From assembly GCF_007289895.1 (NCBI RefSeq), contig NZ_CP041660.1:186001-250000 (forward strand): 64,000 nt of DNA, in the 5' to 3' direction. The stretch is from Catenovulum sediminis (GTDB lineage Bacteria > Pseudomonadota > Gammaproteobacteria > Enterobacterales > Alteromonadaceae). Numbering within the stretch: position 1 is the stretch's first letter; the number at the start of each line of letters is the position of its first letter. Below the pieces are notes generated by a model, which did no database searches, was not told the origin of the DNA, and worked only from the letters and a program-made list of their open reading frames with translations. The translations under genes were made by a program, and so were the position numbers. This document shows positions 11,188-34,332 of this stretch, in pieces.

Positions 11188-12024
11188 TTAATTATGTACA
11201 TTTAACCACAACTCTTTGCGTTCAAGTGGTGTTTGCGGCGTTAAATTTGGGTTTGAAATACGAATAACGGTGCGCTGTGAAAGCTGCGCGCGTGCTAATG
11301 CATTTTTAATATGTGGCGCTTGATAGAATAATTTATCAAAACTACCATCGGCAATTGCGTTTTCAAGGCCCTGCTCTATTAATTGCTGTAATGCTTTGTT
11401 ATCCCGGCTCACAAAAAAATACATAGCCATGGGATAAATTAATAATATATTTTCTTCAACGGTTAACCCCAGCGCTTTGCGCTTAATCACTTCATCCCAT
11501 GGTTCATGCACAGCCAATGGAAAATAGTCGAACCGGCCGCCTTCTAACATATAAAATAAACTTTCTTTTTTGACGGGTGCTACAACAGGTAAACCTGAAT
11601 TTTTGAGAATGACTGTATCTCCCCAAAATCGCCCTTGCCCCGCGGTAAAAGCTTGTAAATCTTGCAGTGTTTTAACCTTAGAAAACTCAGGCTGTTGCTC
11701 AGGTTTAATAATAAAAAGTCGATGTCCTTGTAAACCTTTCATTAAAGGGATCCTGATTGGATAAAGCGTTTCCTCATATTCGGGCTGCGTGCCTGCCCAC
11801 ATAATAGATAGCTCACCCGTTTGTATTCTTTCTACCTGCTGATGTTGGTTAAATATCTGGTCAGATTCTACAATTTTATATGTAGATTCTATATCTGCTT
11901 TTTCTATCGCCAGTTGTATCAACTCAACAAAATAACGACTTTTACTATCGCCCACTTTTGTGTGGTGAATCTGCTGGGCATTCGCACCCGCGACCACAAA
12001 AAACAAACAAATTAGATATTTCAT
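11188..12024 (-). CDS. periplasmic solute-binding protein (SBP_bac_3-like), no transporter partner
   Basis: A 278-residue exported protein: a signal peptide ending at GANA (about residue 16) and then a type II periplasmic-binding fold similar to extracellular solute-binding family 3. No ABC permease or ATPase gene is near it. GAGGT lies before the ATG, and an operator-like palindrome sits only nine bases upstream of the start. This ties the gene to the mannan regulon. A diverged, broken homologue lies at 23160. Without a transporter it may be a sensory or scavenging protein. Such lone binding proteins are common in Alteromonadales, but their ligands are unknown. Confidence 0.75.
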   Translation of the reverse strand: MKYLICLFFVVAGANAQQIHHTKVGDSKSRYFVELIQLAIEKADIESTYKIVESDQIFNQHQQVERIQTGELSIMWAGTQPEYEETLYPIRIPLMKGLQGHRLFIIKPEQQPEFSKVKTLQDLQAFTAGQGRFWGDTVILKNSGLPVVAPVKKESLFYMLEGGRFDYFPLAVHEPWDEVIKRKALGLTVEENILLIYPMAMYFFVSRDNKALQQLIEQGLENAIADGSFDKLFYQAPHIKNALARAQLSQRTVIRISNPNLTPQTPLERKELWLNVHN

Positions 12025-12032
12025 ACTGACCT

Positions 12033-12046
12033 CTCAACCGGTTACA
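12033..12046. promoter_or_regulatory. LacI-type operator, site 1 (binding-protein gene)
   Basis: CTCAACCGGTTACA matches 11 of 14 positions of the palindrome TGTAACCGGTTACA. It lies between the binding-protein gene and the phosphohexomutase stop. Confidence 0.65.
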
Positions 12047-12081
12047 AAAAATAAACATCCCTGTCAAAAGGGTAAAAACAG

Positions 12082-13431
12082 TTACTTATCTTCAATTACT
12101 GCAGCTAACTCAGCGGTTTTTTGCTTCAATAATTCAGCATCAGCTCGGGTTTCAACATTTAAACGTAATAAGGGCTCAGTGTTTGAAGCGCGTACATTAA
12201 AGCGCCAGTTTTCAAACTCCATACTGATGCCATCAATCGTGTCGACTTTAATCGCCTGCTGTTGGTAACATCGGCTAATTTTATCCAGCACATTTTGCAC
12301 ATCCGACACCGTAAAATTACGCTCACCACTGCAAGGAAATTCAGCTTGTTGTTGGGCAACTAATTGCGATAATGAACGGTCAGATTGGGATAAATATTCA
12401 ACCAATATTAACCAAGGAATATTGCCATTATCGCAGTACGCAAAATCTCTAAAATAGTGATGCGCACTCATTTCTCCGCCATACAAAGCGTCTTTTTCGC
12501 GCATGGTTTGTTTTATAAACGCATGCCCTGTTTTACTCACATGCGCCTGACCACCGCTATTTTTAACAACCTCTAATGTATTCCAATATAATCTGGGATC
12601 ATAAACGATATTTTGTTTTGGCTGCTTCTCAAGCATAGCCGCGGCTAACAAAGCCACCATATAATACCCTTCGACAAAGTTACCGGTTTCATCAAAGAAA
12701 AAACAACGATCAAAGTCGCCATCCCAAGCAATCCCTAGGTTCGCTTTGTGATCAATTACCGCTTGCGCTGTAATCTGGCGGTTTTCTGGCAATAATGGAT
12801 TCGGCACACCTTGTGGAAAATGGCCATTCGCATCATGTTGTAATTTAATAAATTCAAAAGGTAATGCATCTTCTAACAAGTCGATGATTGCGCCTGCGCC
12901 ACCATTACCAGCATTAACAACCACTTTGAGTGGTTTTAATACTTCAATATTGATATACGACAATAAATGCGCTTTGTAATTTTCGGCTATCGAAATATAT
13001 TCTACATTTCCTTTTTTGCTAACGGTTGGATAAGTGCGCGATTCAGCTAAATATTTGATGTTAGCTAACTGTGTTTCAGTTATTGGCTGCGCATTTTTTT
13101 TGACAAATTTCATGCCATTATATTCTTTAGGATTATGGCTGGCGGTAACACAAATTCCGCCGTCTATATCCAGCGTTTGGGCAGCAAAATAGATTTCTTC
13201 TGTGCCACACTGTCCAATATGTACTACGTCACAGCCTTGATCATTCAACCCTTTAATCAGTGCTTCGGTTATTTCCGGCCCCGTTAAACGAATATCATGA
13301 CCCACTGCTACTTTTTTTGCCGCGAGTTCGCTCGCATAGGCGCGCCCTATTTCATAAGCGATTAAAGTATTCAGTTGTTGAGGCACTTTGCCGCGTACGT
13401 CGTATGTTTTAAAACAACTGGTTTGCATCAT
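12082..13431 (-). CDS. phosphomannomutase/phosphoglucomutase
   Basis: Alpha-D-phosphohexomutase of about 449 residues interconverting mannose-1-P and mannose-6-P in the cytoplasm (ManB/CpsG/AlgC class). Domains in order: the phosphoserine loop GICVTASHNPKEYNG, the metal loop DGDFDRCFFFDE, the sugar-binding GGEMSAHHYFRDF, and the C-terminal phosphate-binding RASNTEPLLRLN. The start is taken at one of three consecutive ATGs (13434, 13431, 13428). GGAG lies just upstream with the best spacing to the middle one; the frame extends further upstream but only through operator DNA. Next to GH130 and manA genes, its likely direction is Man-1-P to Man-6-P. Two operator-like sites precede it. Confidence 0.92.
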   Translation of the reverse strand: MMQTSCFKTYDVRGKVPQQLNTLIAYEIGRAYASELAAKKVAVGHDIRLTGPEITEALIKGLNDQGCDVVHIGQCGTEEIYFAAQTLDIDGGICVTASHNPKEYNGMKFVKKNAQPITETQLANIKYLAESRTYPTVSKKGNVEYISIAENYKAHLLSYINIEVLKPLKVVVNAGNGGAGAIIDLLEDALPFEFIKLQHDANGHFPQGVPNPLLPENRQITAQAVIDHKANLGIAWDGDFDRCFFFDETGNFVEGYYMVALLAAAMLEKQPKQNIVYDPRLYWNTLEVVKNSGGQAHVSKTGHAFIKQTMREKDALYGGEMSAHHYFRDFAYCDNGNIPWLILVEYLSQSDRSLSQLVAQQQAEFPCSGERNFTVSDVQNVLDKISRCYQQQAIKVDTIDGISMEFENWRFNVRASNTEPLLRLNVETRADAELLKQKTAELAAVIEDK

Positions 13432-13463
13432 CATTAACTCCAAATTTATCCTATAACCACAAA

Positions 13464-13477
13464 TGTAACCGGTTTTA
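13464..13477. promoter_or_regulatory. LacI-type operator, site 2 (phosphohexomutase)
   Basis: TGTAACCGGTTTTA matches 12 of 14 consensus positions, about 33 bases upstream of the mutase start. Confidence 0.7.
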
Positions 13478-13506
13478 CTTATTTCTGCAAGAACTGATGA
13501 GCGCAT

Positions 13507-13520
13507 CCAATCTGGTTACA
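13507..13520. promoter_or_regulatory. weak second operator upstream of the phosphohexomutase
   Basis: CCAATCTGGTTACA matches 9 of 14 positions with one intact half-site (GGTTACA). It lies 43 bases from site 2, so it may be an auxiliary half-site. Confidence 0.35.
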
Positions 13521-13587
13521 GATCTTTAATGATATTGGCAAAAATATGAATGCACTGAGATACAAACCAGATGTTAAGGCTTGAATG

Positions 13588-15002
13588 CTACTCGGGGTTA
13601 TATGAGAACCAATTAAAGTTCCACCCACCGGTATTTGCTTTAATACCTAAATTATGAGTACCAGCAGACAAATACAAAGTGGTATAAACTGTAGTCCAAG
13701 TTTGCCACCCTCCAGTTGCAGGCACGTTAACTGTGCCTAGCACACTGCCGCCTCCAGCTTGCTCTAATTGCAATTGACCACCACTAGGACTAGCAACTCT
13801 AAAACCAAAAACATAATTACCACTTTGACTAATTTGTATATTGTTATAAGTCATCCAATCCCATGTATCAATTGACCCCACACTATAACCGCCTGAAGTG
13901 TCATTTGTAGAGCCAACAATAACACCATTCATATTTGAGTAGTCTTCAGCCTGAACATAAGTAGCTTGTTGAGGGGGATTTTGTGGAAATTGGTAACCAA
14001 GCCATCCAGGCATTTCATTAAGCACCAATACCCTGTCTGACCAATATACCTGCTGAATTTTGCTATTAGTGTTATGTTGAAAGGTTAATTCAGACCACGG
14101 CATAAAAAACGTCCATTGAGATTGTTGCGCAAGTAAAGCTGGCATTGGAATATCATCACATTCACTAATCCCTATTGGTTTACCTGCAGCTTTATTTAAA
14201 ATGGCATTGTATTTCGCAGTTGTGTATCCCTGCCCATCACTCCAATACATATCCATAGTTAACACATCCCAATTGTTATAGCCTGGGTCATAGCTATTCA
14301 AGTCATTTGCCATATTACTGAAATCTTGAACATTCCATAACCAAACAATGTTGGTTAAACCTTTTTGGTTTAATAAATAATCGCGAGTGATTTGATACAA
14401 GCGTGCAGAACCATTTGAGCCAGGTCTTCCCCCCACCAAAACATACCTTGGTTCATTTCATGTAATGGTCGGAATAACACCTCTACACCAGCATCTTTCA
14501 TTTGCTGAATATAATAAGCAACATCGTCCATCATTGATTTCCAGTTACTATTTATTGCAGTTCCATCTGTGATTAACTGATTCCATTCCCAATCCGACAT
14601 AGCACTCAAAACGCCATTTGAGTCCCACTGACAAGGTGATTGTTTGGCTGGATTACAGGCGTGCCACATTAAGTGGATCATTGCCCCGTTATTCCACTCG
14701 TTTATTACTTGATTTGTGATGGTTTGACGATGGGCTATTTCATTCGGCTCAAACTGAAAATCAGTGCTATACATACCTGGCCATTGACCCGTGACAGCAT
14801 TTAAATCACGACTATATTTATTAGGGTCTGAATTGGGTTGCCTATTATGCATTGCCCCAATTGTTTTAGTGCCTTTAATGGAATATAAAAAATCTAAAGT
14901 TTCCAACGCATAACTGTTCGCCGACATCATCAGCGCGCTTGAAACAAGTCCTGCTTGAACGAACTTATAAAAGTTAGTAAGTCTAGTTTTTGTGTAGTGC
15001 AT
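13588..15002 (-). pseudogene. GH26 beta-mannanase with C-terminal CBM6, interrupted by one frameshift
   Basis: Secreted endo-1,4-beta-mannanase. The ATG at 15002 (AAGG seven bases upstream) starts a signal peptide ending near SYA (residue 32). The GH26 domain follows with the acid/base Glu182 in FRPLHEMNQ. Reading breaks at WWG (residue 191) in a six-C run (14429-14434). One more base would join WWG to GRPGSNGSARLYQITRDYL, exactly where the neighbouring GH26 paralogue continues. The second part carries the nucleophile Glu in PIGISECDD and a CBM6-like module starting at TYVQAEDYSNM. Both catalytic residues survive, so either one base was miscalled or the gene is freshly broken. An operator lies 26 bases upstream. 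Confidence 0.85.
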
Positions 15003-15027
15003 AAGTGTACCTTTTATAGGCCGAGTA

Positions 15028-15041
15028 AAATACCGGTTACA
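15028..15041. promoter_or_regulatory. LacI-type operator, site 3 (CBM6-GH26 gene)
   Basis: AAATACCGGTTACA matches 10 of 14 positions with an intact right half, immediately upstream of the GH26-CBM6 ribosome site. Confidence 0.6.
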
Positions 15042-15064
15042 TAAATTAATTGTGTGCAATTGTA

Positions 15065-15078
15065 TGTAACCGGTGGAG
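15065..15078. promoter_or_regulatory. LacI-type operator, site 4 (same gap)
   Basis: TGTAACCGGTGGAG matches 10 of 14 positions with an intact left half. Its centre is 37 bases from site 3, suggesting paired sites before the GH26-CBM6 gene. Confidence 0.5.
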
Positions 15079-15096
15079 TAAAAACTAATTGATATT

Positions 15097-17238
15097 TTAA
15101 TCCTTTGATAAAATGATGTTATCTATTTGAAAGACAGCACCTTTTTGGTTTGCTCCCCATTGAGGAAAAACAACCAATGGTGAATTTACCGAGTCTAATT
15201 GTAACGGACTGCCGTTATTCTCTAGAGCAAGCAAATCGTCTATTTTAAAGGTGTAGTGCTGCCACATACCAACCGATGGCATGACCCCTTCAACACTTGC
15301 ATCTAATCGAACATCACCCGTACCACATGGCCAGCCACAATCCATTTTCATAAACCAGTTACCGTCTATACCTTCGGGCTCTGTAACAACCAGCAAATCA
15401 AACGATAACGTCCCACCAGTATAAGCACTAAAGTCTAAAGGAGACAAAGAACTAAACTCACTAACCACTTCAATGCCGACATACTCATGCTGAATAACTT
15501 TGCCATATTGAGCATCTTCAGCATCTACCACAGTTTCAGTGATTGCAGCAACAGACTTTTCAGGTAATTTCCAATCTGTTATGTCATCCGCAAAAATTAT
15601 CGTATCTGCAATGGGGGCTTCAGGCGCAGGATTAACTACAATGTTGTCAATTCTAAACACAGTATCTTTCTGATTAGCGCCCCACTCTGGGAAAATTACT
15701 AAAGGAGAAGAAACTGAATCAATTTGTAATGGATTACCGTTATTTTCTAACGCTATTAAATCATCAATATTAAAAGTATAGTGTTGCCACTGGCCAACAG
15801 TCGGCGCAACACCTTCAACACTAGAAGTTAACGGCACGTCACCAGTACCGCAAGGCCAGCCACAATCTATTTTCATAAACCAGTTACCATCAATTGCAGT
15901 TGGCTCGTTTACTACTTTTAAATCGAATTCAAGTGTTCCACCAACATATCCAGACAAATCAACAGCGGTATCTGAACGAAATTCACTAACTGTTTCAATA
16001 CCAACATAAGTGTGCTCAACAACATTGCCATAATTTTCGTCTTCAATTACAACAGCTTCAGTAATATTGGCATTTGTAGAAGGTAGCTTCCAATTGGTCA
16101 ACTCTTCATTAAATATTACCAGAGGTTCAACTGTTTGCGCGCCTGAAGATGGGACTTCGTATACGGTCTTGTTTCCATCCGTCCACCCTGGCATGTCGTC
16201 CAGTTTGACAACATTATCTGCATTATAAAGCTCACGGATGTTTGCCTTAGAATTATGCTCAAACGTTAACTCAGCCCAACTCATGACAAAAGCCCATAAA
16301 GGCTGTTCTAACAATAACTCCGGCGATGGGAGTGTTTGTACCTCACCTAATGCAATAGGCTTATTTCCAGCTTTGGCAACTAATGCGTCATACTTCTCTT
16401 GGGTAAAACCTTTACCGTCAGTACCATACATGTCTAGCGATAAAATATCCCAATACTCATCACCCGGATCATAAGAATTTAAATCGTCAGCCAAAGTTGC
16501 AAAGTCTTGTACATTCCAAACAAATGTTAAGTTTGTAAGGTCTTTATCATCAACCAAATAATCATGAGTTAATCGATAAAGCTCTGCTGTGTATTCTTGT
16601 TTGCCCGAGGTTTTTGAAGACCACCAAAAGATAGTTTGATTCATCTCATGGAAAGGACGAAACATTACACGAACGCCCTTTTTATTTAAATAATCTAAAT
16701 AAAAAGCCATGTTGTCTAAGCGTGCTTTCCATGTGTTGTTTAGCTCAGTACCATTCGTTAATAAATCTAACCACTCTTGCTCAGTCAGCTCATAATGCAT
16801 ACCAGCGGTATTCCAGCCACAGGTTTCGGCAGTTGTTGGAGGACACACATGCATCATTATGTTAACTAACATACCTTGCTTCCAACGTTTTTCGGCTTCA
16901 TAGATCATAGACCAACGATTAGCAACATCGTCTTCTGAAAACAAGAAGTCGCCGCTCCACAACCCCGGCCAAACGCCAGTTGTTTTTGCAACTTCTTCAG
17001 TCCACATGTCTGGATCACTATTAGGCTCTCTATTGTGAACCCCTACAACTGTTTTTTGACCCTTAATTGAGTTCAAGTAGTTAAGCATAACTGGTTCTAG
17101 CAAACGGTTGTCTTCAAGCTCCGTAGGCCCATCGCTTGAAACTTCTGGTGTATAAGTAACAACAGGCTCTTCGTTGCCACAGCCAACCAAAGCTAGTGTA
17201 ATCGCGGCAGCTACAGCTGCTCGTTGTGTAATATTCAT
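15097..17238 (-). CDS. GH26 beta-mannanase lipoprotein with two ExoP-C-like carbohydrate-binding modules
   Basis: A 713-residue surface or periplasmic lipoprotein (lipobox LVGC, Cys20) predicted to cut beta-1,4-mannan internally. The GH26 domain spans about 45-350 with acid/base Glu198 in FRPFHEMNQ and nucleophile Glu299 in IALGEVQ. Two consecutive repeats of about 165 residues follow (about 373-535 and 547-713). Each has WKLP, YVGIE.VSEF, NWFMK.DCGWPCGTGDV, WQHYTF.IDDL and a WGANQK segment. They resemble the Gal-binding-like C-terminal domain of marine ExoP beta-glucosidases. The tandem copy points to internal duplication. It is paralogous to the GH26 gene downstream and divergent from the TonB receptor across a 340-base gap that holds two operator-like sites and no other gene. 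Confidence 0.92.
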   Translation of the reverse strand: MNITQRAAVAAAITLALVGCGNEEPVVTYTPEVSSDGPTELEDNRLLEPVMLNYLNSIKGQKTVVGVHNREPNSDPDMWTEEVAKTTGVWPGLWSGDFLFSEDDVANRWSMIYEAEKRWKQGMLVNIMMHVCPPTTAETCGWNTAGMHYELTEQEWLDLLTNGTELNNTWKARLDNMAFYLDYLNKKGVRVMFRPFHEMNQTIFWWSSKTSGKQEYTAELYRLTHDYLVDDKDLTNLTFVWNVQDFATLADDLNSYDPGDEYWDILSLDMYGTDGKGFTQEKYDALVAKAGNKPIALGEVQTLPSPELLLEQPLWAFVMSWAELTFEHNSKANIRELYNADNVVKLDDMPGWTDGNKTVYEVPSSGAQTVEPLVIFNEELTNWKLPSTNANITEAVVIEDENYGNVVEHTYVGIETVSEFRSDTAVDLSGYVGGTLEFDLKVVNEPTAIDGNWFMKIDCGWPCGTGDVPLTSSVEGVAPTVGQWQHYTFNIDDLIALENNGNPLQIDSVSSPLVIFPEWGANQKDTVFRIDNIVVNPAPEAPIADTIIFADDITDWKLPEKSVAAITETVVDAEDAQYGKVIQHEYVGIEVVSEFSSLSPLDFSAYTGGTLSFDLLVVTEPEGIDGNWFMKMDCGWPCGTGDVRLDASVEGVMPSVGMWQHYTFKIDDLLALENNGSPLQLDSVNSPLVVFPQWGANQKGAVFQIDNIILSKD

Positions 17239-17340
17239 TCATTGACTCCAAAATAAAGCAAAAATAAAAAGCTAGTAAGTCGCACTAAAATGCTTACGGA
17301 CGCCTCATCATGCTGACTTGACAAAAACAATAGCAAAACA

Positions 17341-17354
17341 GGTAACGCGTTACA
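17341..17354. promoter_or_regulatory. LacI-type operator variant, site 5 (GH26 lipoprotein)
   Basis: GGTAACGCGTTACA matches 11 of 14 positions. Its centre is GCGC-like (ACGCGT) instead of ACCGGT, about 100 bases upstream of the GH26 lipoprotein start. Confidence 0.5.
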
Positions 17355-17529
17355 AATGGTAAATTTAATTATTTACAAAAAAATTACTTTTTTTTGATAA
17401 AACCCAAAAACAAAACCATTAAAAAGTTTAAAATCCTATTTTTTTACATATTTTTAATTGAATACTTACCTTTTTTGATTTAAATTGACTTAAACCATCA
17501 CATTTATAGGCTCAACGCCAGACTGTGAA

Positions 17530-17543
17530 TGTAACCGGTTTTC
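17530..17543. promoter_or_regulatory. LacI-type operator, site 6 (TonB receptor)
   Basis: TGTAACCGGTTTTC matches 11 of 14 positions, some 36 bases before the TonB-receptor start. Confidence 0.65.
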
Positions 17544-17578
17544 TTTAAATTTATAATACTAATATGGGTACATATTTT

Positions 17579-20515
17579 ATGATCTTCAAAAGAACACTAC
17601 TTGCAGCAGGTATTACTACAGCACTACTACAAACGATAGCCCCGGTAGCGTCAGCTGCTGAAAATTCAGAAGAGCAAACCGAAACAATTACCGTTACTGG
17701 TATTCGAGGCTCACTGATCAAGTCAGTTGCCGACAAACGAAATGCAGGCTCTGTGATAGATGCGATTACGGCAGAAGACATTGGTAAACTACCGGATATC
17801 ACTATAGCCGATTCACTACAGCGTGTAACAGGCATTCAAATTAAACGCTCTGCCGGTGAGGGTGCAAGTGTAAACGTTCGTGGCTTATCTCAAGTTACTA
17901 CATTGTTAAACGGTGAGCAATTTATTAGCACGGGGTCAATTACCGGTTTACAACCTGATTTTAGTGATATACCTGCAGAATTATTAGGCGGTGTAGAGGT
18001 GTATAAATCCTCTGAAGCTAATTTAATGTCTGGTGGTATCTCAGGCACCGTGAATCTAAAGAGTCGTCGCCCATTAAACCTGGATGATGGATGGACTTTT
18101 GTTGGCTCAGCTGAAGGCTCAAAAGGTAATTATACTGATGATGTAGGTAAAAAAATAACTGCTTTCGCTGGATTCAAACAAGATGATTTTGGCGTTATTG
18201 CAACCATTTCTAAATCAGACTCTACGCTTGCAAATTTCCGCTATGGCATGTTTGGGGATTGGATTTACCGTGGCTACCATATGGACGTAAATGAAGACGG
18301 TGAACAAGACGTTTTATTTGGCAATATAGATTATGGTATTACCAATAAAACAGCTAAGCGTGATCGCCTTGGGGCTTCTGCAACCTTCCAATATTACTTA
18401 AATGACCAAGTCGAATTAGTCGGTGATGTGTTTTACACCGAAATGGAGAACAATGATCACGCTAACGGTTTAGTTGTCGATAACGCATGGCAAAAATGGA
18501 GTGGATTTATTGATCCAATCGAATATACAAATCATGGTCAAGGTCGCGTAAACCCAGGGCATGAGGGCGAAGACTTTTACACAACAGATCACTTCAACAT
18601 TGTTGCTCCTCGAGTGCTGTCAAAGGGTGAAGCCGTTACCAGCAAGAGAGATTCTCTAAACCTTAATTTACAAGCAAACGTATTCTTAACCGACAACCTA
18701 AAAGGGTCAATTAGATATGTTCACGGTGAAGCAACCAGTGACAATACTTTCAATTATGCTGATGCATATGCAACTAGCGGTGCACAACAAAACTTAAATC
18801 GTCGCGTTGATGGCGTCGAAGAAGTTGCAAACCCAGGTGGCTGGGGACCTGAAGATGTTACAATAGAAGTTGATACTAGAGGTAAGTTTCCTACTTTTAC
18901 TTTCCCGGAAGGTTTTGGTACGGATATGAGCCAATATGCGTTAGTTTCAACATTCTCCGAAAACAACCACCTTGACGAAGCAAGTCTTGACGCGCTGCGC
19001 CTTGATGGTAAGTACGAATTTGACAGTAGTTTCTCTTTTATTGACATGGCATCTATTGAATTCGGTGCACGAGTTGCTAAGCGCGAAGTTATTTCAAATA
19101 ATTATGATTTAGCCGCACCATTCACCCGTAAACTCAATGACAACAGTGGTGAAGTATTAACATCTTATGCTAAATGGAAAGATTCAGGCATTGCAGTAGA
19201 TGCAGGAACTGGCGATACAATTGGTCGTTACATTGGTTACGAAGAATTAGCTGATATAGGTTATATACACGAAGTCTCTGATTTCGGGCCTGCAAGCAAT
19301 GGCCAAAGTTTCTTCTTTATAAACCCAGAAGTAATGTCTGATGCGTTAGCTTTCCAAGATTCAATTTACCCAGGTAACGTTAAGGCAAACAATTGGTTTA
19401 ATTCATATAAAGTTGAAGAAGATATTAATACATTCTATCTGCAAGCCAATCTTAGTGGCGAATTGTTAGTGCCTTTTAACGCAAATTTAGGGGTTCAAGC
19501 AGTTAGCAGCACCATAGACGTAACCGGTTATAGTGGTGGCAATACTTCATACCTTATCGTGGATGGTGTGCAATACAATGCAGTAGCGGGTGCTCCAGGT
19601 CCAAAAGTTGGCACTACAGTAACCAGTAAAGAAACGTTAGATTATTTACCTCGCGTAAACCTGAACTTTGACTTAACGCAAGACCTTAAATTACGTTTTT
19701 CATATACAGAGAATCTAACTCAGTTAGATGCAAGGTTATTGGGGGCGGGATCTAAAGTAACCATGACACCTTATGGCAACGAAGAACTTAAAGGTGTATT
19801 TCAAGCACAACGTGTCGACGTGAGCGGCAACCCTGAGTTAAATCCGTGGAGCTCTAAAAATCTTGATGTTAGTTTGGAATGGTATTTTGACGATGAGGGA
19901 ATAATCAGTATCGGTGCATACAAGTTAGATATCGATAGTGCTCCAATGACAGTGAGCAGTGAATTAATCATGGACATCCCAGACTCAGACGGTGTTGTGC
20001 GCAACAATGGATTACCTTATGCGTACCCGACAAATGGTGAAGGACTATCTGTTGAAGGTGTCGAGTTTGGATACCAACAAGGTTATGAATTTTTACCGGG
20101 TTTCTTGAGCGGCTTAGGGTCAACCATCAATTACACTTGGTCAACGGGTGATGGTGGTAACGAGGATTTTTATGGTAAAAGTATGATCATGACTGATAAC
20201 TCCGAGCATCAGTTAAATGCAATACTTTGGTATCAAAAAGACAATTTACAAGCTCGTATCGCATACAACTACCGCAGCGAAAGGTTTAATGGCGTTCCTG
20301 GTATTGATGGACACTTTGCTGCATACATGACATCACCAACAAAATACGTCGACGCGTCAGTAAACTATCAAGTAAACGATAATTTTGAGGTGTACCTTCA
20401 GGGCCAAAACTTGACGAAAGAATTTGAAAGTACGTACATGCAATGGGAGGACGTTAAGGTCAATCAAAACGTTTTCGAAGCACGATATACATTGGGAGTA
20501 CGAGCTAAATTTTAG
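17579..20515 (+). CDS. TonB-dependent receptor for mannan oligosaccharides (inferred)
   Basis: Outer-membrane receptor of about 978 residues. A signal peptide (MIFKRTLLAAG to VASAA) precedes a TonB-box-like ETITVTGIRGSL. A plug domain follows (IADSLQRVTGIQIKRSAGEG, VNVRGLSQVTTLLNG, EVYKSSEANLMSGGISGTVNL), then a large barrel ending in YTLGVRAKF with the terminal aromatic residue typical of outer-membrane barrels. It belongs to the large marine Xanthomonas/Caulobacter-like group that works without SusD. Position beside mannanases and an operator indicates mannan-oligosaccharide import. The start at 17579 is chosen because it begins the signal peptide; an in-frame ATG lies five codons upstream. 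Neither has a strong ribosome site. Confidence 0.9.
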   Translation: MIFKRTLLAAGITTALLQTIAPVASAAENSEEQTETITVTGIRGSLIKSVADKRNAGSVIDAITAEDIGKLPDITIADSLQRVTGIQIKRSAGEGASVNVRGLSQVTTLLNGEQFISTGSITGLQPDFSDIPAELLGGVEVYKSSEANLMSGGISGTVNLKSRRPLNLDDGWTFVGSAEGSKGNYTDDVGKKITAFAGFKQDDFGVIATISKSDSTLANFRYGMFGDWIYRGYHMDVNEDGEQDVLFGNIDYGITNKTAKRDRLGASATFQYYLNDQVELVGDVFYTEMENNDHANGLVVDNAWQKWSGFIDPIEYTNHGQGRVNPGHEGEDFYTTDHFNIVAPRVLSKGEAVTSKRDSLNLNLQANVFLTDNLKGSIRYVHGEATSDNTFNYADAYATSGAQQNLNRRVDGVEEVANPGGWGPEDVTIEVDTRGKFPTFTFPEGFGTDMSQYALVSTFSENNHLDEASLDALRLDGKYEFDSSFSFIDMASIEFGARVAKREVISNNYDLAAPFTRKLNDNSGEVLTSYAKWKDSGIAVDAGTGDTIGRYIGYEELADIGYIHEVSDFGPASNGQSFFFINPEVMSDALAFQDSIYPGNVKANNWFNSYKVEEDINTFYLQANLSGELLVPFNANLGVQAVSSTIDVTGYSGGNTSYLIVDGVQYNAVAGAPGPKVGTTVTSKETLDYLPRVNLNFDLTQDLKLRFSYTENLTQLDARLLGAGSKVTMTPYGNEELKGVFQAQRVDVSGNPELNPWSSKNLDVSLEWYFDDEGIISIGAYKLDIDSAPMTVSSELIMDIPDSDGVVRNNGLPYAYPTNGEGLSVEGVEFGYQQGYEFLPGFLSGLGSTINYTWSTGDGGNEDFYGKSMIMTDNSEHQLNAILWYQKDNLQARIAYNYRSERFNGVPGIDGHFAAYMTSPTKYVDASVNYQVNDNFEVYLQGQNLTKEFESTYMQWEDVKVNQNVFEARYTLGVRAKF

Positions 20516-20530
20516 AAACAGTGTGAAATT

Positions 20531-22286: not shown

Positions 22287-22298
22287 CACCCTATTGTT

Positions 22299-22325
22299 AA
22301 GGCCACTGTTTCAGTGGCCTTGTTT
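22299..22325 (+). terminator. stem-loop after the GH5-like gene
   Basis: Perfect 10-bp stem AAGGCCACTG / CAGTGGCCTT with a 3-base loop, followed by GTTT. It is a probable but weak Rho-independent terminator. Confidence 0.6.
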
Positions 22326-22342
22326 AACTACTTGGCGATCAT

Positions 22343-23976: not shown

Positions 23977-23987
23977 CCCGTTATTTC

Positions 23988-25916: not shown

Positions 25917-27134
25917 TCAATGCAATTTATCGCTAAGCACTTTGATTACTTCCATCATGGCTCTACCATTATGGTATGGGGCTTTCCAAAACCCAGCTTT
26001 GTAAGTGTTATAGTCGGCATCCTGATCACGCGTTGCCAGCCAGTGCCATTCGCCTAAAGCCCTGTCTATATGAAACTCTTTAGTGAACGACCAAATATTG
26101 TTAAATACTTGCCAATATGCGGTGTCGCCTGTTAATTGGTAAGTATATAAAAACCCAACCATGGCTTCAGCTTGAACCCACCAACAACTTTCTTGGTGTT
26201 TAATGGCTTTGCCAATATCATATTCATCACAGACCTGCCCTTGATCACCTAACCCTTCGGTCAGTGTCGTTTTAGCGACAGCTAAAACCAGTGGTTTAAC
26301 CCGATTCATCACTAACGGATCGTTTAATGCAACCAGTGCTTCATACAACAGCCAACTACATTCGATGTCATGACCATATGAAAATGTTTTTGAATGGTCT
26401 TGCCAATCAACATCCATAAATAAACGTAAATGGTTATTTGCTTTGTTGATAATAGTACCATCAAAAAAATCGACTAAACGTCGCAAAGCTAACGCACTTT
26501 CAGCTGTCGGTTTAACCAGATGTAAGGTCGCATACGCTTCCATTACATGTAGATGCGTATTTTGCGTTTTAGGTAGATTGTCGTCTTTTTCACTTAAACG
26601 AAAATCGCCGATGTCTCCCCATTTGCGATCAAAGGCTTCTAAATAGCCGCCTTTTTCATCGTCATGGCAATATTTCTGTAAAATTTGAAAGTATTCATAG
26701 GCTTTGTCAATCGCTTGCTGATTACCGGTTAATTTGTAATACGCACATAGTCCGTAAATGGCAAATGACTGAGCATAAGTTTGTTTTTTACTGTCCTTTA
26801 CGTGTCCATCTGCGGTTAATGACCAATACACCCCGCCATATTCAGCATCGTGAAAGTAATTTGTTATATATTGAAATGCCCGATGTGCTGCAGCTTTATA
26901 TTCTGGTTTATCTATATACTGACAAACCTCACTAAAAAACCACAATATTCTGGCATGCATAACTACACCTTTATCTGCTGAAGCCACAGCAGTGCCATCT
27001 GCTTCTACCTGGCCATAAAATCCACCATTTTTTTCATCTATGGTATTTTTTACCCACCAGTCAGCAATATTACCGAGTTCATCTCTAAACTCGGCAACTA
27101 AGCTGGCGATTTCCGGCTTGTTAAACAAAGACAT
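25917..27134 (-). CDS. AGE-family epimerase, likely mannobiose 2-epimerase
   Basis: A 405-residue (alpha/alpha)6-barrel of the N-acylglucosamine/cellobiose 2-epimerase family. Conserved active-site elements are NTHLHVMEAYATL (about 192-204), SYGHDIECSWLLYEAL (about 252-267), HQESCWWVQAEAMVGF (about 311-326) and FWKAPYHNGRAMME near the C-terminus. Its start overlaps the GH130 stop as TAATG. In the known Bacteroides route a mannobiose 2-epimerase turns mannobiose into mannosyl-glucose for the GH130 phosphorylase, and the coupling here supports the same role in the cytoplasm. Confidence 0.88.
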   Translation of the reverse strand: MSLFNKPEIASLVAEFRDELGNIADWWVKNTIDEKNGGFYGQVEADGTAVASADKGVVMHARILWFFSEVCQYIDKPEYKAAAHRAFQYITNYFHDAEYGGVYWSLTADGHVKDSKKQTYAQSFAIYGLCAYYKLTGNQQAIDKAYEYFQILQKYCHDDEKGGYLEAFDRKWGDIGDFRLSEKDDNLPKTQNTHLHVMEAYATLHLVKPTAESALALRRLVDFFDGTIINKANNHLRLFMDVDWQDHSKTFSYGHDIECSWLLYEALVALNDPLVMNRVKPLVLAVAKTTLTEGLGDQGQVCDEYDIGKAIKHQESCWWVQAEAMVGFLYTYQLTGDTAYWQVFNNIWSFTKEFHIDRALGEWHWLATRDQDADYNTYKAGFWKAPYHNGRAMMEVIKVLSDKLH

Positions 27135-28309
27135 TAGATTGATTCCAAAACAGCTAGGTTTCGATTGATTAATGCATTACGCACTTCAACCGACGCCGCT
27201 GAGCGAAGACCATCTTCCGGCGTATTTTTCACATAATCAATCAACTTATCTAAAGTTGTTGTAGCAACGTGCATACGGGTATCCGACGATGCGTAATAAA
27301 TATTCACATCTTTGCCATTTAGCGTCCAACCATTGGCAAATACGACATTGGATACATCACCCACTCGTTCTTCACCTTCTGGTGCAATAAAGTGGCCTGC
27401 AGGTGCATGTTTAATCACCCAAGGTTTATCTAACTCTGTCATAAACATATATAATACGTAGCGCAAACCGGCTGCAGTGTTTCGCACACCATGGGCTAAA
27501 TGCAACCACCCTTCATCGGTTTTAATGGGTGCCGGGCCTTGCCCATTTTTGATTTCTTTAATGGTATGGTAAGCCTTGTTGTCGATAATGACTTCTTCTT
27601 TAATTTCAGCATTTTCCATCGAGTCACATAAACCCCAACCAATACCACCACCTTTGCCGACACTGATAAAACCATCTTGAGGACGGGTATACAACGCGTA
27701 TTTGCCATCAACAAACTCAGGGTGCAAAACAACATTGCGCTGTTGACCAGAATAGGTAATTAAGTCAGGTAAACGCTCCCAGTTCACTAAATCTTTGGTA
27801 CGTGCAATACCGCACTGCGCTTCAGCGGCAGATAAGTCATCCGGGAAGTTTTCGTCTTTTCTCTCAGTGCAAAATAACCCGTAAATATATCCATCTTGGT
27901 GCTGAGTTAATCGCATATCATAAATATTTGTATCCGCTCTTTCTGTTTCCGGCATGGTGATTGGATGTGACCAGAACCTAAAATTATCGACACCGGTTTC
28001 ACTTTCAGCGACAGCAAAAAATGATTTACGATCATCTCCTTCTACCCGCACAACCAATAAGTATTTACCGTTCAGATAAATAGCACCTGAGTTTAAAGTT
28101 GCATTAATACCCTGTCTTTCTAATAAATAAGGATTGCTCTTTTCGTTTAAATCAAAACGCCAATAAACCGGTACGTGCTCACGCGTAATTATCGGGTTTT
28201 CCCAACGTTGGTATATTCTGTTACCACCCGTTTTTGCTTTGTTTGGTTTAATTAATAAACTTTCTTGCGCAGAAATCAAAGCTTTGACTTGCTGAATGTA
28301 TGAACTCAT
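27134..28309 (-). CDS. GH130 phosphorylase, likely 4-O-beta-D-mannosyl-D-glucose phosphorylase
   Basis: A 391-residue GH130 enzyme. The five-bladed propeller features include IYDMRLTQHQDGYIYG with the proton-donor Asp (about residue 130), ARTKDLVNWERLPDL, NVVLHPEFVDGKYALYTRPQ, IKNGQGPAPIKTDEGWLHL and the C-terminal VNIYYASSDTRMHVAT. It would split mannosyl-glucose with phosphate into mannose-1-P and glucose in the cytoplasm; specificity is inferred from coupling to the epimerase. It is transcribed after the symporter gene and also has its own operator-like site. Confidence 0.9.
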   Translation of the reverse strand: MSSYIQQVKALISAQESLLIKPNKAKTGGNRIYQRWENPIITREHVPVYWRFDLNEKSNPYLLERQGINATLNSGAIYLNGKYLLVVRVEGDDRKSFFAVAESETGVDNFRFWSHPITMPETERADTNIYDMRLTQHQDGYIYGLFCTERKDENFPDDLSAAEAQCGIARTKDLVNWERLPDLITYSGQQRNVVLHPEFVDGKYALYTRPQDGFISVGKGGGIGWGLCDSMENAEIKEEVIIDNKAYHTIKEIKNGQGPAPIKTDEGWLHLAHGVRNTAAGLRYVLYMFMTELDKPWVIKHAPAGHFIAPEGEERVGDVSNVVFANGWTLNGKDVNIYYASSDTRMHVATTTLDKLIDYVKNTPEDGLRSAASVEVRNALINRNLAVLESI

Positions 28310-28322
28310 GTTGACCCCTTAA

Positions 28323-28336
28323 TAATACCGGTTACA
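28323..28336. promoter_or_regulatory. LacI-type operator, site 7 (GH130-epimerase)
   Basis: TAATACCGGTTACA matches 11 of 14 positions, 14 bases upstream of the GH130 start. Confidence 0.65.
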
Positions 28337-28383
28337 AATCGATTAATAATTTGTCTTAATTTAAAATAAAATATAGTTTCTAA

Positions 28384-29770
28384 TTAGCCTTCTGCACGTC
28401 GGGCATACAGCTCTTGATTAACTTGCTGCATATAATCGTCAGTCAATCGATAGAAAATCATAAATAATGCTGAAATCATAGCCCCTATGGCGGGTAAAAA
28501 ACTGACCATGTAACGCAAACCTTCTTTGGCGACATCGGTCTGTTCAACGTTGGCAACGTAGCCAAAATATGCCAATGTCCAGCCGGTTAATGCCCCCCTA
28601 ATGTCCACCCCATTTTTTGTGCAAATGAAGAGGATGAAAAGATTAATCCGGTTGTTCTCCGACCCGTTGTATATTCAGAATAATCTGCAATATCCGCATA
28701 CATTGACCACAACAATGGAAAAATAATACCAGCACAGGCGCTGATCACCACCTGCAACATTAAAATAAGTGTTAATTGTCCTTCATCTAAAAAATAAAAC
28801 AAACAGCTTAAAATGGCGGCAGAAAACATTGCATACATGAAGGTGTTGCGCTTACCAAGTCTTTTAGAGATAGGTTGTGCCAATACCACCCCGATGATAT
28901 TTGACGCCTGTCCTAAAACTAAATAAACCGTCGTAATACCAAAACTTAGCCCCAGAAACGACCACTCTGGTGATTGGATATAATATTTAAAATAATAAAC
29001 TGAAGCACCATCACGCATGCTATTAAAGATTAAAGTTGCCAATGCTGCACCCAATAAAATAAACCAGGGTTTATTGGTTGCTAAGTTTTTAAAATCTTTT
29101 TTAAGTGAGCTTTGTTGTGTTGCCGGCGGTTGAATGCGCTCTTTTGTCCAAGCGAATGTAAAATAAAACAAAATTGCGGCAATACAGCCGTACACCACCA
29201 TAGTTAACATCCAACCCGTCTGCGGATCCGGTGTTTCGGTTAAATGGGTAAAAAACTGAGTTAACGGATCGATAAGCACAAACGCAAAGATACTACCGGC
29301 AAATGCCAACACCATTCTGTATGAAGCAAGCTGTGTTCTATCGTCGCTGTTTGCAGACATTACGCCTAATAACGCGCCATAAGGTACATTCACAGCGGTA
29401 TACGCCATCATCATCAGTGTATAAGTGCAATATGCATACACTAGTTTAGCTTCGTTTGACCAATCTGGCGTGGTAAAAGTTAACACGCCGATTAAAGCAA
29501 AGGGTATTGCCCCCACAATAAATAGGGTCTGAACTTACCCCAGCGTGTATTGGTTCTGTCTGCGACAATGCCCATAATTGGGTCGTTTGCAGTATCCCAA
29601 ATACGTGTGACTAAAAACATAGTACCGACTGCTGCTGCTGAGATCCCAAAAACATCAGTGTAAAATATCATCAGGTAGACAGAGAACATCTTCCAAAACA
29701 TCGAAGAGGCAAAATCGCCAAAACCATATCCTAATTTTTCTTTAAATTTTAACTGCTGTGTTTCATTCAT
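28384..29770 (-). pseudogene. GPH-family sugar:cation symporter, interrupted by two frameshifts
   Basis: A 12-helix MFS/GPH (glycoside-pentoside-hexuronide) symporter, expected to carry mannobiose or related sugars across the inner membrane. The N-terminal piece begins KEKLGYGFGDFASSMFWK and contains the loop DRTNTRWGKFRPYLLWG. The frame is lost in a five-C run (29510-29514); one extra base gives WGAIPFALIG. It is lost again in a six-C run (28593-28598), where one extra base joins KMGWTLGG to ALTGWTLAYFGY. Apart from those two points the whole family length is present and conserved. Both breaks are single missing bases in homopolymers, so the gene may well be intact. An operator-like site lies 52 bases upstream. 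Confidence 0.85.
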
Positions 29771-29821
29771 AAATTTGCTCTACATTCGATGGAAAACCAA
29801 TACCAAGTGTGAAAACCAAAT

Positions 29822-29835
29822 TGTATCCGGTTACA
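29822..29835. promoter_or_regulatory. LacI-type operator, site 8 (symporter)
   Basis: TGTATCCGGTTACA matches 13 of 14 positions. Confidence 0.75.
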
Positions 29836-30005
29836 TAGGTAAGATATTAGCACAACTTTTTGGATAAGTAACAGCAAAAAAAGTGAAAATGTACATTTTT
29901 ATTACATTGCTTGCTTAACTGAAAAGAAGAATTCGCCACCTAGTATATAAAAAGTAATTTAAATTCATAAAGTTAGCTTATTTTAAAACAACTTTATGTC
30001 TAAAA

Positions 30006-31109
30006 TTAATCTTCTTTAGGCGGGAAAACGTTAAAATAATGTTTAGTCCGCTGCAAATTTAGAAAAACAGATAAAGATGAGAAATCTTGCCGTCTCCAAG
30101 CTTTAAAATGCAGTAATGTTTCATCCAGCTTATCGCGGGTTATTAAGCCAAAGTCCAAGGGGAATTGAACCCCATTATCAATCTCAGCAAAGTCTCTTTT
30201 ATTGGCGTGATCAAATAACAATACAAGACCCAAAGCCCCTGTAACACTGTGCCCACCAACAACTACGTGTAATTCTCCAGCCTGTAACGCAGCAAAAGTT
30301 TGAGGTGTAAAATTAACCGTGCCGATACTGATGTTTGATTGTCTGCCAAGTGCTTCGATAGCGCTGGCACTTCCTTTTGCAATACGGTGTCCTGCCGTCC
30401 ATATTACATTTGTGTTTGGAAAGCGTGTTAATAATTTAGTCGTTTTATAAAAACCATCGGTTTCGGTCCAGTCGGTTGGAATTATTTGTTGTAAATGCGT
30501 GTTGCCAGCGGCAACGACTTGTTTCAAACCAGCAATTCGGTTTTCACTTTCACTATGTTGTTTACTACCTGCCAGCGCGACGACATAAGTATCAGAATAG
30601 GTATCAGAATAGGTATCAGACTCATTCTGCGGTGTTTGCAACGCTTCCATAAGCCGGCGTCCCGCTTGCACATTGTTACCAAATATGTGCCCTAACCAAT
30701 ACTTAAATTTTTCGCGTGGTTTTTTATAACTATCCACTTCGTTTGGCGGTATTTCACCGGATATCATTAAAGAAGGTATTTTCAATGATTCCAGCTTAAC
30801 GAGTGTTTTATAGCTGATTAAGCCTGGTAATGGCGTGAAAATAACATAATCAGGTTTAGGCGACATCGCTTCGATTTGACGCATTTTAGCAATTTGTTCG
30901 CGAAAATTATCGTCATGCTGGTCATACAAAATTGAAAGGTTTACATGCAAATCATTTGCTGCTTTTTGCATATGCGCTTGCACTTGTGTCCAATAGGTAC
31001 ACTGGGTGGTTTGTTTACATGGGCTTAAATAAACAATATTTAGCGCCTGTGCAGGTGCACACAGTATAGTTGCAATGGCGATTAATATACTAACGCAACA
31101 GGTTTTCAT
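30006..31109 (-). CDS. periplasmic sugar-binding protein (Peripla_BP_4-like), lone
   Basis: A 367-residue exported protein: a signal peptide ending at AQA (about 22), then a type I periplasmic-binding fold like ribose/LacI-type sugar-binding proteins (YVIFTPLPGL, NVIWTAGHRIAKGSASAIEAL, GTVNFTPQTFAAL). No ABC permease or ATPase accompanies it, and the import route here is TonB plus symporter, so it more likely serves as a ligand sensor or buffer. It is divergent from the LacI-family gene, with an operator-like palindrome between them. It contains an in-frame tandem repeat of Ser-Asp-Thr-Tyr. Confidence 0.75.
   Translation of the reverse strand: MKTCCVSILIAIATILCAPAQALNIVYLSPCKQTTQCTYWTQVQAHMQKAANDLHVNLSILYDQHDDNFREQIAKMRQIEAMSPKPDYVIFTPLPGLISYKTLVKLESLKIPSLMISGEIPPNEVDSYKKPREKFKYWLGHIFGNNVQAGRRLMEALQTPQNESDTYSDTYSDTYVVALAGSKQHSESENRIAGLKQVVAAGNTHLQQIIPTDWTETDGFYKTTKLLTRFPNTNVIWTAGHRIAKGSASAIEALGRQSNISIGTVNFTPQTFAALQAGELHVVVGGHSVTGALGLVLLFDHANKRDFAEIDNGVQFPLDFGLITRDKLDETLLHFKAWRRQDFSSLSVFLNLQRTKHYFNVFPPKED
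30589..30620. repeat. 12-bp in-frame tandem repeat (SDTY)n
   Basis: GTATCAGAATAG is present twice in tandem plus eight bases of a third copy. On the minus strand this encodes three SDTY units in the binding protein, a likely length-variable site. Confidence 0.8.
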
Positions 31110-31235: not shown

Positions 31236-31249
31236 AGAAACCGGTTTAC
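31236..31249. promoter_or_regulatory. degenerate LacI-type operator, site 9 (lacI/binding-protein gap)
   Basis: AGAAACCGGTTTAC keeps the AAACCGGTTT palindromic core but only 9 of 14 consensus positions. It lies between two divergent genes and may mediate autoregulation. Confidence 0.45.
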
Positions 31250-32501: not shown

Positions 32502-33683
32502 TTATAAACAAGTATACACCCGCGCCACTTTTGTATTTGCGCCAGTTAATGTTTTTGGTTTGAGACTTGCTGGCCATAAAAATGATTCACCCTGAACAAA
32601 AATTTCACCGCTTACCGCGACCTGCCCTTCTACTACAAAATACAACTCAACCCCTTCACTGGAGCCTGTAAGATATTCATTTTCTTCATTAAGCATTAAT
32701 AGTTCAAACTGAAAATCGGGACAAGGAATATCAAATATACGTACATTCTTTTTAACCCGCCCTTGTTGCACCTCAATTTGATTGGCTTGTGAAGTATACT
32801 GGGTTACTTTAACAAGCTCTGCTCTGTCCATGTATTTTTGTGTTAAACCACCGCGCAATACATTGTCAGAATTCGCCATAATTTCAATGCCCGTTCCTTT
32901 CAGATATGCATGTGGGCAACCAGCTCCCAAAAATATTGCCTGACCCGGAGATAACTCAAAAAGATTTAAAATCAATGGAAAGAAGATCCCTGAGTCAACA
33001 CCATAAAGTTGATATAACTGGTACAACCAAGACAAAGCGTTATCATCGGATTGTTGTGCAATTTGTACCGCATACCCAACATAGTCCGTTAACAGTTCAC
33101 CATCCAGATACAATAACCAATGATAAAAAGCTTCAATATCCTGCGCACTCCCTGCTTTAATGCGAAAAGCCCATTTATCAAAATCTGGATGCTGCAAGGT
33201 CAATAGCGATTCAGCGAGTGCCTCATTAGTTCGAAAACCCGCCATCGCATAAAAAGGGGTCAGCGCGTAAATCAGTTCAGGCTTATGATTGTCATCTTTA
33301 TAATTACAGTTTTGACTCTGTGCGGTTATACCCGCGGCCCGCTCTTTTTTAAAACCACTTTGCGCCTGAGCTTTACTGGGATGAACCTGAATAGAAAGCG
33401 CTTTACGAGCAGACAATATCTTAAATAAATACGGTAAGGTATTGTCCATACTTGCAGCATGCGCACCTAATATAAGTTCGGGTTGCTGGCGGATCAGCTC
33501 ATTTAAAGATTGACCACTATCTGCCACCATTGACGGCGCATTCGGATGTGCACCAACCCATAACTCTGCTAAAGGTAAATCTGTATCTGGTTTGTCGATT
33601 CCCAATATTGCTGGAATATCGTTATAAGTACCCCAATCATAATTTTGAAATTGATTGTTCAGTCTTAATGGTTTTGAAAACAT
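32502..33683 (-). CDS. manA: mannose-6-phosphate isomerase, class I
   Basis: Zinc enzyme of 393 residues converting mannose-6-P to fructose-6-P in the cytoplasm. The zinc and substrate motifs are SIQVHPSKAQAQ (Gln/His), DDNHKPELIYALTPF (Glu) and FLGAGCPHAYLKG with ANSDNVLRGGLT (His and the active-site loop). Length is as for ManA. It closes the pathway from Man-1-P via the phosphohexomutase to glycolysis. A 13-of-14 operator match lies 50 bases upstream, and a second site lies 344 bases upstream. Confidence 0.95.
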   Translation of the reverse strand: MFSKPLRLNNQFQNYDWGTYNDIPAILGIDKPDTDLPLAELWVGAHPNAPSMVADSGQSLNELIRQQPELILGAHAASMDNTLPYLFKILSARKALSIQVHPSKAQAQSGFKKERAAGITAQSQNCNYKDDNHKPELIYALTPFYAMAGFRTNEALAESLLTLQHPDFDKWAFRIKAGSAQDIEAFYHWLLYLDGELLTDYVGYAVQIAQQSDDNALSWLYQLYQLYGVDSGIFFPLILNLFELSPGQAIFLGAGCPHAYLKGTGIEIMANSDNVLRGGLTQKYMDRAELVKVTQYTSQANQIEVQQGRVKKNVRIFDIPCPDFQFELLMLNEENEYLTGSSEGVELYFVVEGQVAVSGEIFVQGESFLWPASLKPKTLTGANTKVARVYTCL

Positions 33684-33732
33684 CTTATTCTTTCTCTACT
33701 CATTTAAATACAAAAGTGGTTAAACACCAAAT

Positions 33733-33746
33733 AGTAACCGGTTACA
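33733..33746. promoter_or_regulatory. LacI-type operator, site 10 (manA)
   Basis: AGTAACCGGTTACA matches 13 of 14 positions with a perfect GTAACCGGTTAC palindrome. Confidence 0.75.
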
Positions 33747-34332
33747 CAAATTAGATAAGAAAAATCCATAGCAATGTGGTTTATTGGCAAACAAGCGCTG
33801 GTATTGCAGAGCCAAGCAAATTTGCTTGATTAAGAAAACGATACTTAAAACCGCAGTTATATTTATTGAATTTCGCTGTTAAGCGCCGCGTACGTTGCAC
33901 AAAACTTATTCACAGTTAACACATTAATCTCTCATGTTTCTTAAGCTAAAACTCTCAATACCTAATTATTTGGCATCAAGAATATGTGCATCATAATAGC
34001 GAAATATAATTCTTACAATAAAAAAATGTAACCGGTATCCAAAGGTATAATCTACCCCCATGGAAAATTTAAATATAAAACATCAAACTTTACAAAATTT
34101 TATCTAACGAATAAACACAACGTCTATGCATTCTCAGCTAATTTCTGACAAGTTAGATAAAAACTAAACTGGTCGTAATGGATTAATATATACCTAAAAG
34201 ACGCACTGCTTATGAGCTTAATTAATACCAATATTTGGCAGGCTAACTGCTTAGAAATACCAGTGCTTACGATAGTCTAGTTATAAATCAGAGATGATGC
34301 TTAATGTACTAGGCTTTTTTATCTGTACTAAA
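33747..34332. other. long AT-rich gap upstream of manA, no gene seen
   Basis: No credible reading frame on either strand. The only notable element is the operator-like site near 34027; otherwise the DNA is AT-rich and featureless to my reading. Confidence 0.5.
34027..34040. promoter_or_regulatory. LacI-type operator, site 11 (distal to manA)
   Basis: TGTAACCGGTATCC matches 11 of 14 positions with an intact left half. It is about 294 bases from site 10, so it could be a distal looping site. Confidence 0.5.

Follow-up and report, generated by a model that had tools for sequence, protein, structure and literature searches.

A candidate LacI-family regulon for beta-mannan catabolism in Catenovulum sediminis, and a differing regulator-operator pair among its relatives

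The Bacteroides-type pathway for beta-mannan combines a 2-epimerase, a mannosyl-glucose phosphorylase and a phosphomannomutase, under regulators of other types than the one described here, and in enzymological terms the route runs from mannobiose through mannosyl-glucose, mannose-1-phosphate and mannose-6-phosphate to fructose-6-phosphate. The same enzyme set appears to be encoded in a locus of the marine bacterium Catenovulum sediminis, which we studied in a 64,000-nucleotide stretch of contig NZ_CP041660.1 (positions 186,001 to 250,000; "the window", whose coordinates are used throughout) of the 4.87 Mb, two-contig genome. The mannan genes span window positions 11188-34040 (the interval) and are accompanied by a gene at 31359 for a LacI-family protein, here called 31359 LacI, and by a series of predicted operators, each named below by its first position, with the 14-mer consensus TGTAACCGGTTACA; the 10-mer ACCGGTTACA comprises its core and one half-site. 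An initial annotation had picked out this palindrome by eye and proposed that it marks a mannan regulon under 31359 LacI.

LacI-family regulators of mannose and mannosides are a known kind, as the survey PMC4052901 lists ManR, a member of the family, for mannose and mannosides. In Shewanella, regulators named manR-I/II are listed with transporters and an outer-membrane receptor (PMC2996990), and Clostridium thermocellum has GlyR2, a mannobiose-responsive LacI repressor linked to mannanase genes (PMC10766802). By description 31359 LacI resembles ManR in its family and in its assignment to mannose and mannosides, and differs in that the C. sediminis set includes GH26, GH130 and 2-epimerase genes. 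GlyR2, again likened by description, shares the LacI type and the mannanase genes but belongs to a Gram-positive host. A literature search whose coverage stopped short of subscription journals and RegPrecise returned no paper giving the 14-mer as a string and, among the titles and abstract openings listed, none on a Catenovulum mannan regulon. The system is of an ordinary, familiar kind; what is notable is an apparent regulator-operator switch among its relatives.

Our reading, to which we give a probability of roughly 0.85, is that 31359 LacI is a dedicated repressor of beta-mannan catabolism acting through TGTAACCGGTTACA-type operators. A dimer of the protein would sit on operators centred mostly 15-110 bp before the mannan gene starts, at or just after the promoter, and block transcription until released by an inducer derived from mannan, for which mannobiose, mannosyl-glucose and a mannose phosphate are the probable candidates. 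The derepressed cell would then make the TonB receptor and the GH26 mannanases for the outside, the symporter, and for the inner pathway the 2-epimerase, the GH130 phosphorylase yielding mannose-1-phosphate, the phosphomannomutase and ManA, ending at fructose-6-phosphate. Direct binding, repression and the effector are what we infer here; the sites, their clustering in the genome, their conservation and the co-variation of helix and operator can be read from the DNA itself.

Matches to TGTAACCGGTTACA with at most three mismatches number 11 in the window against 2.7 in shuffled sequence (0 of 100 shuffles reached 11), and 10 of these begin within the interval, where 0.97 would be expected from the 206 places in the whole genome (binomial p = 7e-8). 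The reversed control pattern has 379 places genome-wide at the same threshold; the motif is thus the rarer of the two and not enriched over the genome as a whole, and the excess is local. At one mismatch or fewer, only two places remain in 4.87 Mb, 29822 and 33733, and these are the sites (13 of 14 each) that the initial annotation had ranked above 13464 (12 of 14). At two mismatches or fewer there are 15 places; the interval has four, of which three are non-coding and one is in the TonB gene, and of the 11 outside it 10 fall within open reading frames (ORFs). The 10-mer ACCGGTTACA has 8 of its 10 genomic copies inside 22 kb (window 12037-34036), and the reversed 10-mer has 14 genomic copies; after start-codon correction the eight clustered copies are non-coding, while the other two lie within ORFs. 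The probability of this clustering is 1e-17 for the given interval and 1e-14 when the choice of interval is allowed for, our p-values taking no account of relatedness and the genomes not being independent. Equally good sites are therefore concentrated in the interval and not spread randomly through the genome, and a motif spotted by eye has become a genome-tested regulon with a named candidate regulator. Site 13464 falls in the longest phosphohexomutase ORF, but we take it as non-coding because the orthologue alignment begins at 13434. Two good matches do lie within genes, 19519 in the TonB gene (12 of 14) and 12678 in the mutase gene (11 of 14). The former (19519-19532) has a 13/14 counterpart in the receptor of genome G103 (56% identical), placed by a shared GVQAV context, and, since the match encodes V-T-G/S-Y, may reflect a motif of the protein instead of an operator inside the gene.

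The arrangement is conserved within the genus. The nearest named relatives of 31359 LacI are in C. agarivorans YM01 (73%) and, closer still, Catenovulum sp. 2E275 (78%). A LacI orthologue (E <= 1e-100) is present in four of eight Catenovulum genomes, and 10-mer clusters lie beside LacI in those four, with additional clusters on a second contig in G106 and about 35 kb or more away in G104. The four genomes lacking the orthologue hold 2, 2, 4 and 16 scattered 10-mer copies, none less than 19 kb apart; G050 and G085 also lack it at 1e-60, and for the other two the threshold was 1e-100. In four Catenovulum species a site stands before each of manA, the symporter, GH130 and phosphomannomutase, and in three before the TonB receptor and GH26. 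The gene for a 278-amino-acid protein has a site in C. sediminis and G106 (11/14 for the orthologue at L106); G103 has no noteworthy match there. Upstream of the symporter a 15-bp stretch that takes in the operator is unchanged across four species, with diverged sequence on either side, and the TGTAACCGGT half before GH130 is likewise invariant in four. The manA and phosphomannomutase upstream regions have diverged too far for a good alignment; the manA site of G106 overlaps the gene start as called, and in G104 and G106, where phosphomannomutase is at a different locus, the site is found there too. Further genes behind sites in the relatives encode a hexokinase, a sugar transporter, a GH26 with CBM35, a GH5 with CBM10 and a sulfatase, the hexokinase of 2E275 lying behind the transporter that has the site.

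We also scanned the window with a matrix trained on 69 sites from the neighbourhoods of LacI orthologues in other genera. Its training sites were picked, coding or not, at 12 or more matches of 14 to the consensus of the initial annotation, with identical 22-mers counted once, which is a mild circularity. The ten best hits all fall in the interval (in descending order 33733, 29822, 13464, 12678, 34027, 19519, 17341, 17530, 12033 and 28323), two of them, 12678 and 19519, within genes, and nine hits in the window score at least 10, where Markov sequence yields 0.44 per 64 kb. The 11th and 12th hits, 51143 and 5135, fall outside the interval and score higher than 15028 (7.44, rank 13) and 31236 (7.15, rank 14); 13507, a weak 9/14 match, is outside the 30 best, and chance gives 2.4 hits of 6 or more per 64 kb. 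Thus 13507 and 31236 are as doubtful as had been suspected. Read on both strands, the 69 sites, preselected at 12/14 or better, yield TGTAACCGGTTACA; the left centre base is C in 134 of 138 readings. The exact 14-mer stands beside the LacI gene in four of four loci of GC-rich Microbulbifer, and exact or one base off in other Alteromonadaceae and other genera; these occurrences are independent of the window and so escape the circularity, and bear out the consensus first read from C. sediminis. The operators of other genera are even palindromes with a central CG, as PMC4052901 describes for most motifs of the family.

31359 LacI carries PF00356 (2.3e-15, residues 4-48) and PF13377 (2e-40, residues 165-326), which places it in the LacI family, and NCBIfam has no name for it: the best-scoring equivalog, CytR NF008269, reaches 296.8 bits against a cut-off of 436, and the LacI-family GntR models NF011563 and NF052440 reach 121.1 against 433 and 210 against 400. 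Its recognition helix reads S14-I15-A16-T-V-S-R20. Helix and operator were compared across 98 genomes, an even draw rather than the whole family, each classed by its best LacI hit with a fetched locus. Eight genomes with a mannan-type LacI of helix S[IT]ATVSR have 2-10 copies each of TGTAACCGGTTACA at one mismatch or fewer, five with STGT[VI]SK have 0, and the other 85, among which G047 (LacI 50% identical, helix SVATVSR) is counted, average 0.85; the fetched loci of the five likewise hold no TGTAACCGGTTACA match of 12/14 or better. The STGT[VI]SK regulators are nested within the mannan LacI clade (quick tree, SH-aLRT support 99), with helix changes A16G and R20K in GalR numbering, and adjoin mannan genes in fetched stretches of differing length (GH130 in four of five, GH26-like and TonB-receptor genes in three, phosphomannomutase in three, the symporter in two). 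Their loci carry ATGAACCGGTTCAT-type sites, with 21 places at 12/14 or better in the fetched stretches; at one mismatch or fewer the five genomes have 19 (2-5 each) against 5 in seven S[IT]ATVSR genomes, G023 being left out of both classes because both regulators are present.

Counted from the centre, the two operator types differ at bases 5, 6 and 7. Of these, the first two are linked to residues 15/16 and 20 in the code of Camas, Alm and Poyatos 2010 (PMC2978694), so that residues 16 and 20 and bases 5 and 6 of that code match those differing here. The published code is restricted to the TVSR group, whereas here a natural difference between TVSR and T[VI]SK is accompanied by T in place of G6, and by a difference at the outermost base as well. 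A related clade (L049-L051, L053-L055) with hinge RPN[WV]LA, K55 in place of R55, is flanked by TGTAATCGATTACA-type palindromes in which ATCGAT replaces ACCGGT, in agreement with the link between residue 55 and base 2 in PMC2978694; the link is loose here, since ACCGGT is also found with S55 (L046), and R55 goes with mixed centres in L041-L045. Taken with presence and absence across the genus and with the sites beside orthologues, operators that differ in step with the recognition helix support 31359 LacI as the regulator that had been proposed; it is very probably the reader of the mannan operators, on indirect support that is strong.

Sites were expected upstream of a list of mannan genes, and most have one, but the gap between lacI and the binding-protein gene holds no convincing site; with the GH26-CBM6 start corrected to 15002, that gene has two, 15028 and 15065. 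The centre lies 15-134 bp before a start codon in 11 of the 12 listed sites and at most 80 bp before it in nine. Eight fall within 30-140 bp, the distance at which the LacI-family motifs surveyed in PMC4052901, mostly even palindromes with a central CG, are mostly found, and 12033, 17530 and 28323 lie nearer (15-28 bp). Before the symporter, a promoter-like element (TTACTT, 16 bp, TAATAT) ends 8 bp before operator 29822, so that the operator would cover the transcription start. This placement can be likened to that of lac O1, which covers the transcription start. TTACTT is invariant in four species, the second hexamer in the others being TATTAT, TAATAT or TAGAAT; a consensus promoter scan of 11000-30900 gave 38 promoter-like sites against 59.6 in shuffles. 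That 31359 LacI is instead an activator, or of dual sign, at some promoters seems improbable to us: sites 17341 (GH26) and 31236 (gap), centred 110-134 bp before the start, stand where activation would be possible, but the nine nearer centres, and the symporter site just after a -10-like element, occupy the position of a repressor.

No gene could be assigned to the site at 34027. Between the same flanking neighbours (manA and a MOSC gene) C. agarivorans has a hexokinase gene with a site before it. A search run without a positive control found no hexokinase in the C. sediminis genome, and the window shows no remnant of one at E up to 1. This operator may have been left behind after loss of the hexokinase.

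Several observations weigh against a dedicated mannan repressor. Self-complementarity is limited to 3-4 of seven pairs in six of the 12 listed sites, which have a single good half, whereas the Microbulbifer palindromes are perfect. No good site was found before lacI itself in C. sediminis and, 13507 and 31236 being weak, autoregulation there is unproven; 2E275 has an 11/14 site before its lacI. ATGAACCGGTTCAT has a background, with at least one place at one mismatch or fewer in 45 of 98 genomes and up to three outside its class, and in G054 two of its five places are not at the LacI locus. In LacI relatives of 43-50% identity (L115, L116, L117, L079, L077), TGTAACCGGTTACA, exact or one base off, stands beside 3-keto-sugar genes. 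Eight of the 85 other genomes hold three or more motif copies; G017, G047, G063 and G081 fit these 3-keto-sugar relatives, and the remaining four are G008, G033, G045 and G073. In G081 and G017 a GMC oxidoreductase, a Gfo/Idh/MocA protein, a 3-keto-disaccharide hydrolase and a nucleoside-type symporter stand behind the 14-mer (exact or one off), as do GMC, Gfo/Idh/MocA and symporter genes in Kordiimonas; a GMC gene stands behind a 13/14 site in a Phenylobacterium metagenome-assembled genome (MAG), and a Gfo/Idh/MocA gene and a PD40 protein behind the motif in G047. The alphaproteobacterial MAG M2405 has two exact sites with no gene behind by the ORF rules used, and in G017 and G063 the 3-keto-sugar-type sites are on another contig than the listed LacI hit. 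That the motif by itself marks mannan genes is ruled out by these 3-keto-sugar genes behind the 14-mer under related LacI proteins; genes with the same motif need not belong to one pathway.

A further point of this kind is another LacI protein of C. sediminis, L058, whose helix, STATVSR, adjoins TGTAA half-sites in relatives and makes cross-binding possible. With 10 LacI-type genes over the cut-off in the genome, real operators could be read by another of these proteins, or by several. We consider this quite unlikely, because 31359 LacI is the only one in the mannan cluster, its presence in the genus tracks the sites, helix and operator differences go together, and the two ACCGGTTACA copies elsewhere in the genome lie within ORFs. 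Chance combined with local base composition has a negligible claim and was rejected by the genome scan, the shuffles, the matrix against Markov sequence and the binomial tests: matches of 9-10 of 14 are indeed as common as had been cautioned (41 in window 1-11187 alone), and the 14-mer is outnumbered genome-wide by its reversed control, but the local counts greatly exceed those of shuffles, of Markov sequence and of the genome elsewhere, and sites are conserved while flanks diverge.

Genome G023 (L130, L088, L120) holds two paralogous LacI proteins with different helices, and both operator types. Its SIATVSR regulator has AGTAACCGGTTACA and TGTAACCGGTTAAT before lacI and GH130, and for its STGTISK regulator GTGAACCGGTTCAT precedes lacI and ATGAACCGGTTCAT a GH26-like gene. 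Separation is incomplete: both lacI promoters contain, in addition, a 12/14 match to the opposite type, and the two types occur together in one TonB-receptor promoter. We think it somewhat more likely than not that a duplicated mannan LacI acquired A16G and R20K in its helix and exchanged the operator TGTAACCGGTTACA for ATGAACCGGTTCAT, that G023 keeps both pairs with mixed, perhaps intermediate promoters, and that the mannan regulon of at least five other genomes has moved to the new pair, a stepwise rewiring. Two sister repressors over similar mannan genes, with operators differing at bases 5, 6 and 7, offer a natural test of operator-specificity switching in a multi-operon regulon.

Table 1. 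Predicted operators and annotated genes of the interval, in window coordinates
Feature	Position	Strand	Match to 14-mer	Details
278-amino-acid protein, secreted-looking	11188..12024	-		no Pfam or NCBIfam family match
Predicted operator	12033..12046		11/14	centre 15.5 bp before 278-amino-acid protein gene
Phosphomannomutase/phosphoglucomutase	12082..13434	-		start corrected to 13434; CpsG model 566 bits, below cut-off 801
Predicted operator	13464..13477		12/14	before phosphomannomutase
GH26 mannanase with CBM6/CBM35-like module (GH26-CBM6)	13588..15002	-		start 15002; one frame break, poly-C run near 14430
Predicted operator	15028..15041		10/14, one perfect half	centre 32.5 bp upstream of GH26-CBM6 (start 15002)
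Predicted second operator half	15065..15078		10/14	before GH26-CBM6; matrix score low (2.5)
Second GH26 mannanase	15097..17238	-		profile matches
Predicted operator, variant GGTAACGCGTTACA	17341..17354		11/14	before GH26 gene; C. agarivorans counterpart TGTAACGGGTTACT
Predicted operator	17530..17543		11/14	before TonB receptor operon
TonB-dependent receptor, TonB-Xanth-Caul type	17564..20515	+		profile matches
DUF5060 protein and alpha/beta hydrolase	20583..23113	+		downstream of TonB receptor; profile matches
Cellobiose/mannobiose 2-epimerase-like enzyme	25917..27134	-		EpiA model 522.6 bits, below cut-off 800
GH130, 4-O-beta-D-mannosyl-D-glucose phosphorylase-like	27134..28309	-		likeness to solved structures
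Predicted operator	28323..28336		11/14	before GH130-epimerase(-halogenase); TGTAACCGGT half
GPH-type symporter	28390..29770	-		two frame breaks at poly-C runs; middle piece alone 227.3 bits, just below GPH cut-off 231.35
Predicted operator	29822..29835		13/14	before symporter, just past promoter-like element
Periplasmic sugar-binding protein	30006..31109	-		profile match
Doubtful site	31236..31249		9/14	binding-protein/lacI gap
LacI-family regulator, 331 amino acids	31359..32354	+		Pfam LacI and Peripla_BP_3; orthologue tree; proposed operator reader
manA, mannose-6-phosphate isomerase	32502..33683	-		profile match
Predicted operator	33733..33746		13/14	before manA
Predicted operator	34027..34040		11/14	centre 350 bp before manA; without gene of its own

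The closest solved structures of the GH130 enzyme are 4-O-beta-mannosyl-glucose phosphorylases (3was, 2.2e-170) and those of the 2-epimerase-like enzyme are cellobiose 2-epimerases (3wkf, 2.4e-99); both enzymes, and the phosphomannomutase alike, miss their NCBIfam equivalog cut-offs. Together in one locus with the phosphomannomutase, they point to a phosphorolytic gene set for beta-mannan. The gene set, which also includes two GH26 genes and manA, supports the assignment to mannan, for which the motif alone is not specific.

Two genes of the cluster are broken at runs of 5-6 C, the symporter gene into three frames and the first GH26 gene into two. Relatives carry intact orthologues of both, and the breaks look like long-read homopolymer errors rather than decay. 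At 23307-23902 lies a broken paralogue of the 278-amino-acid protein gene, in two frames (tblastn pieces). A tryptophan-halogenase-family gene at 24287-25762, downstream of the epimerase, also lies within the mannan cluster, in C. agarivorans too, and a gene 32% identical to it in G106 has an 11/14 site before it.

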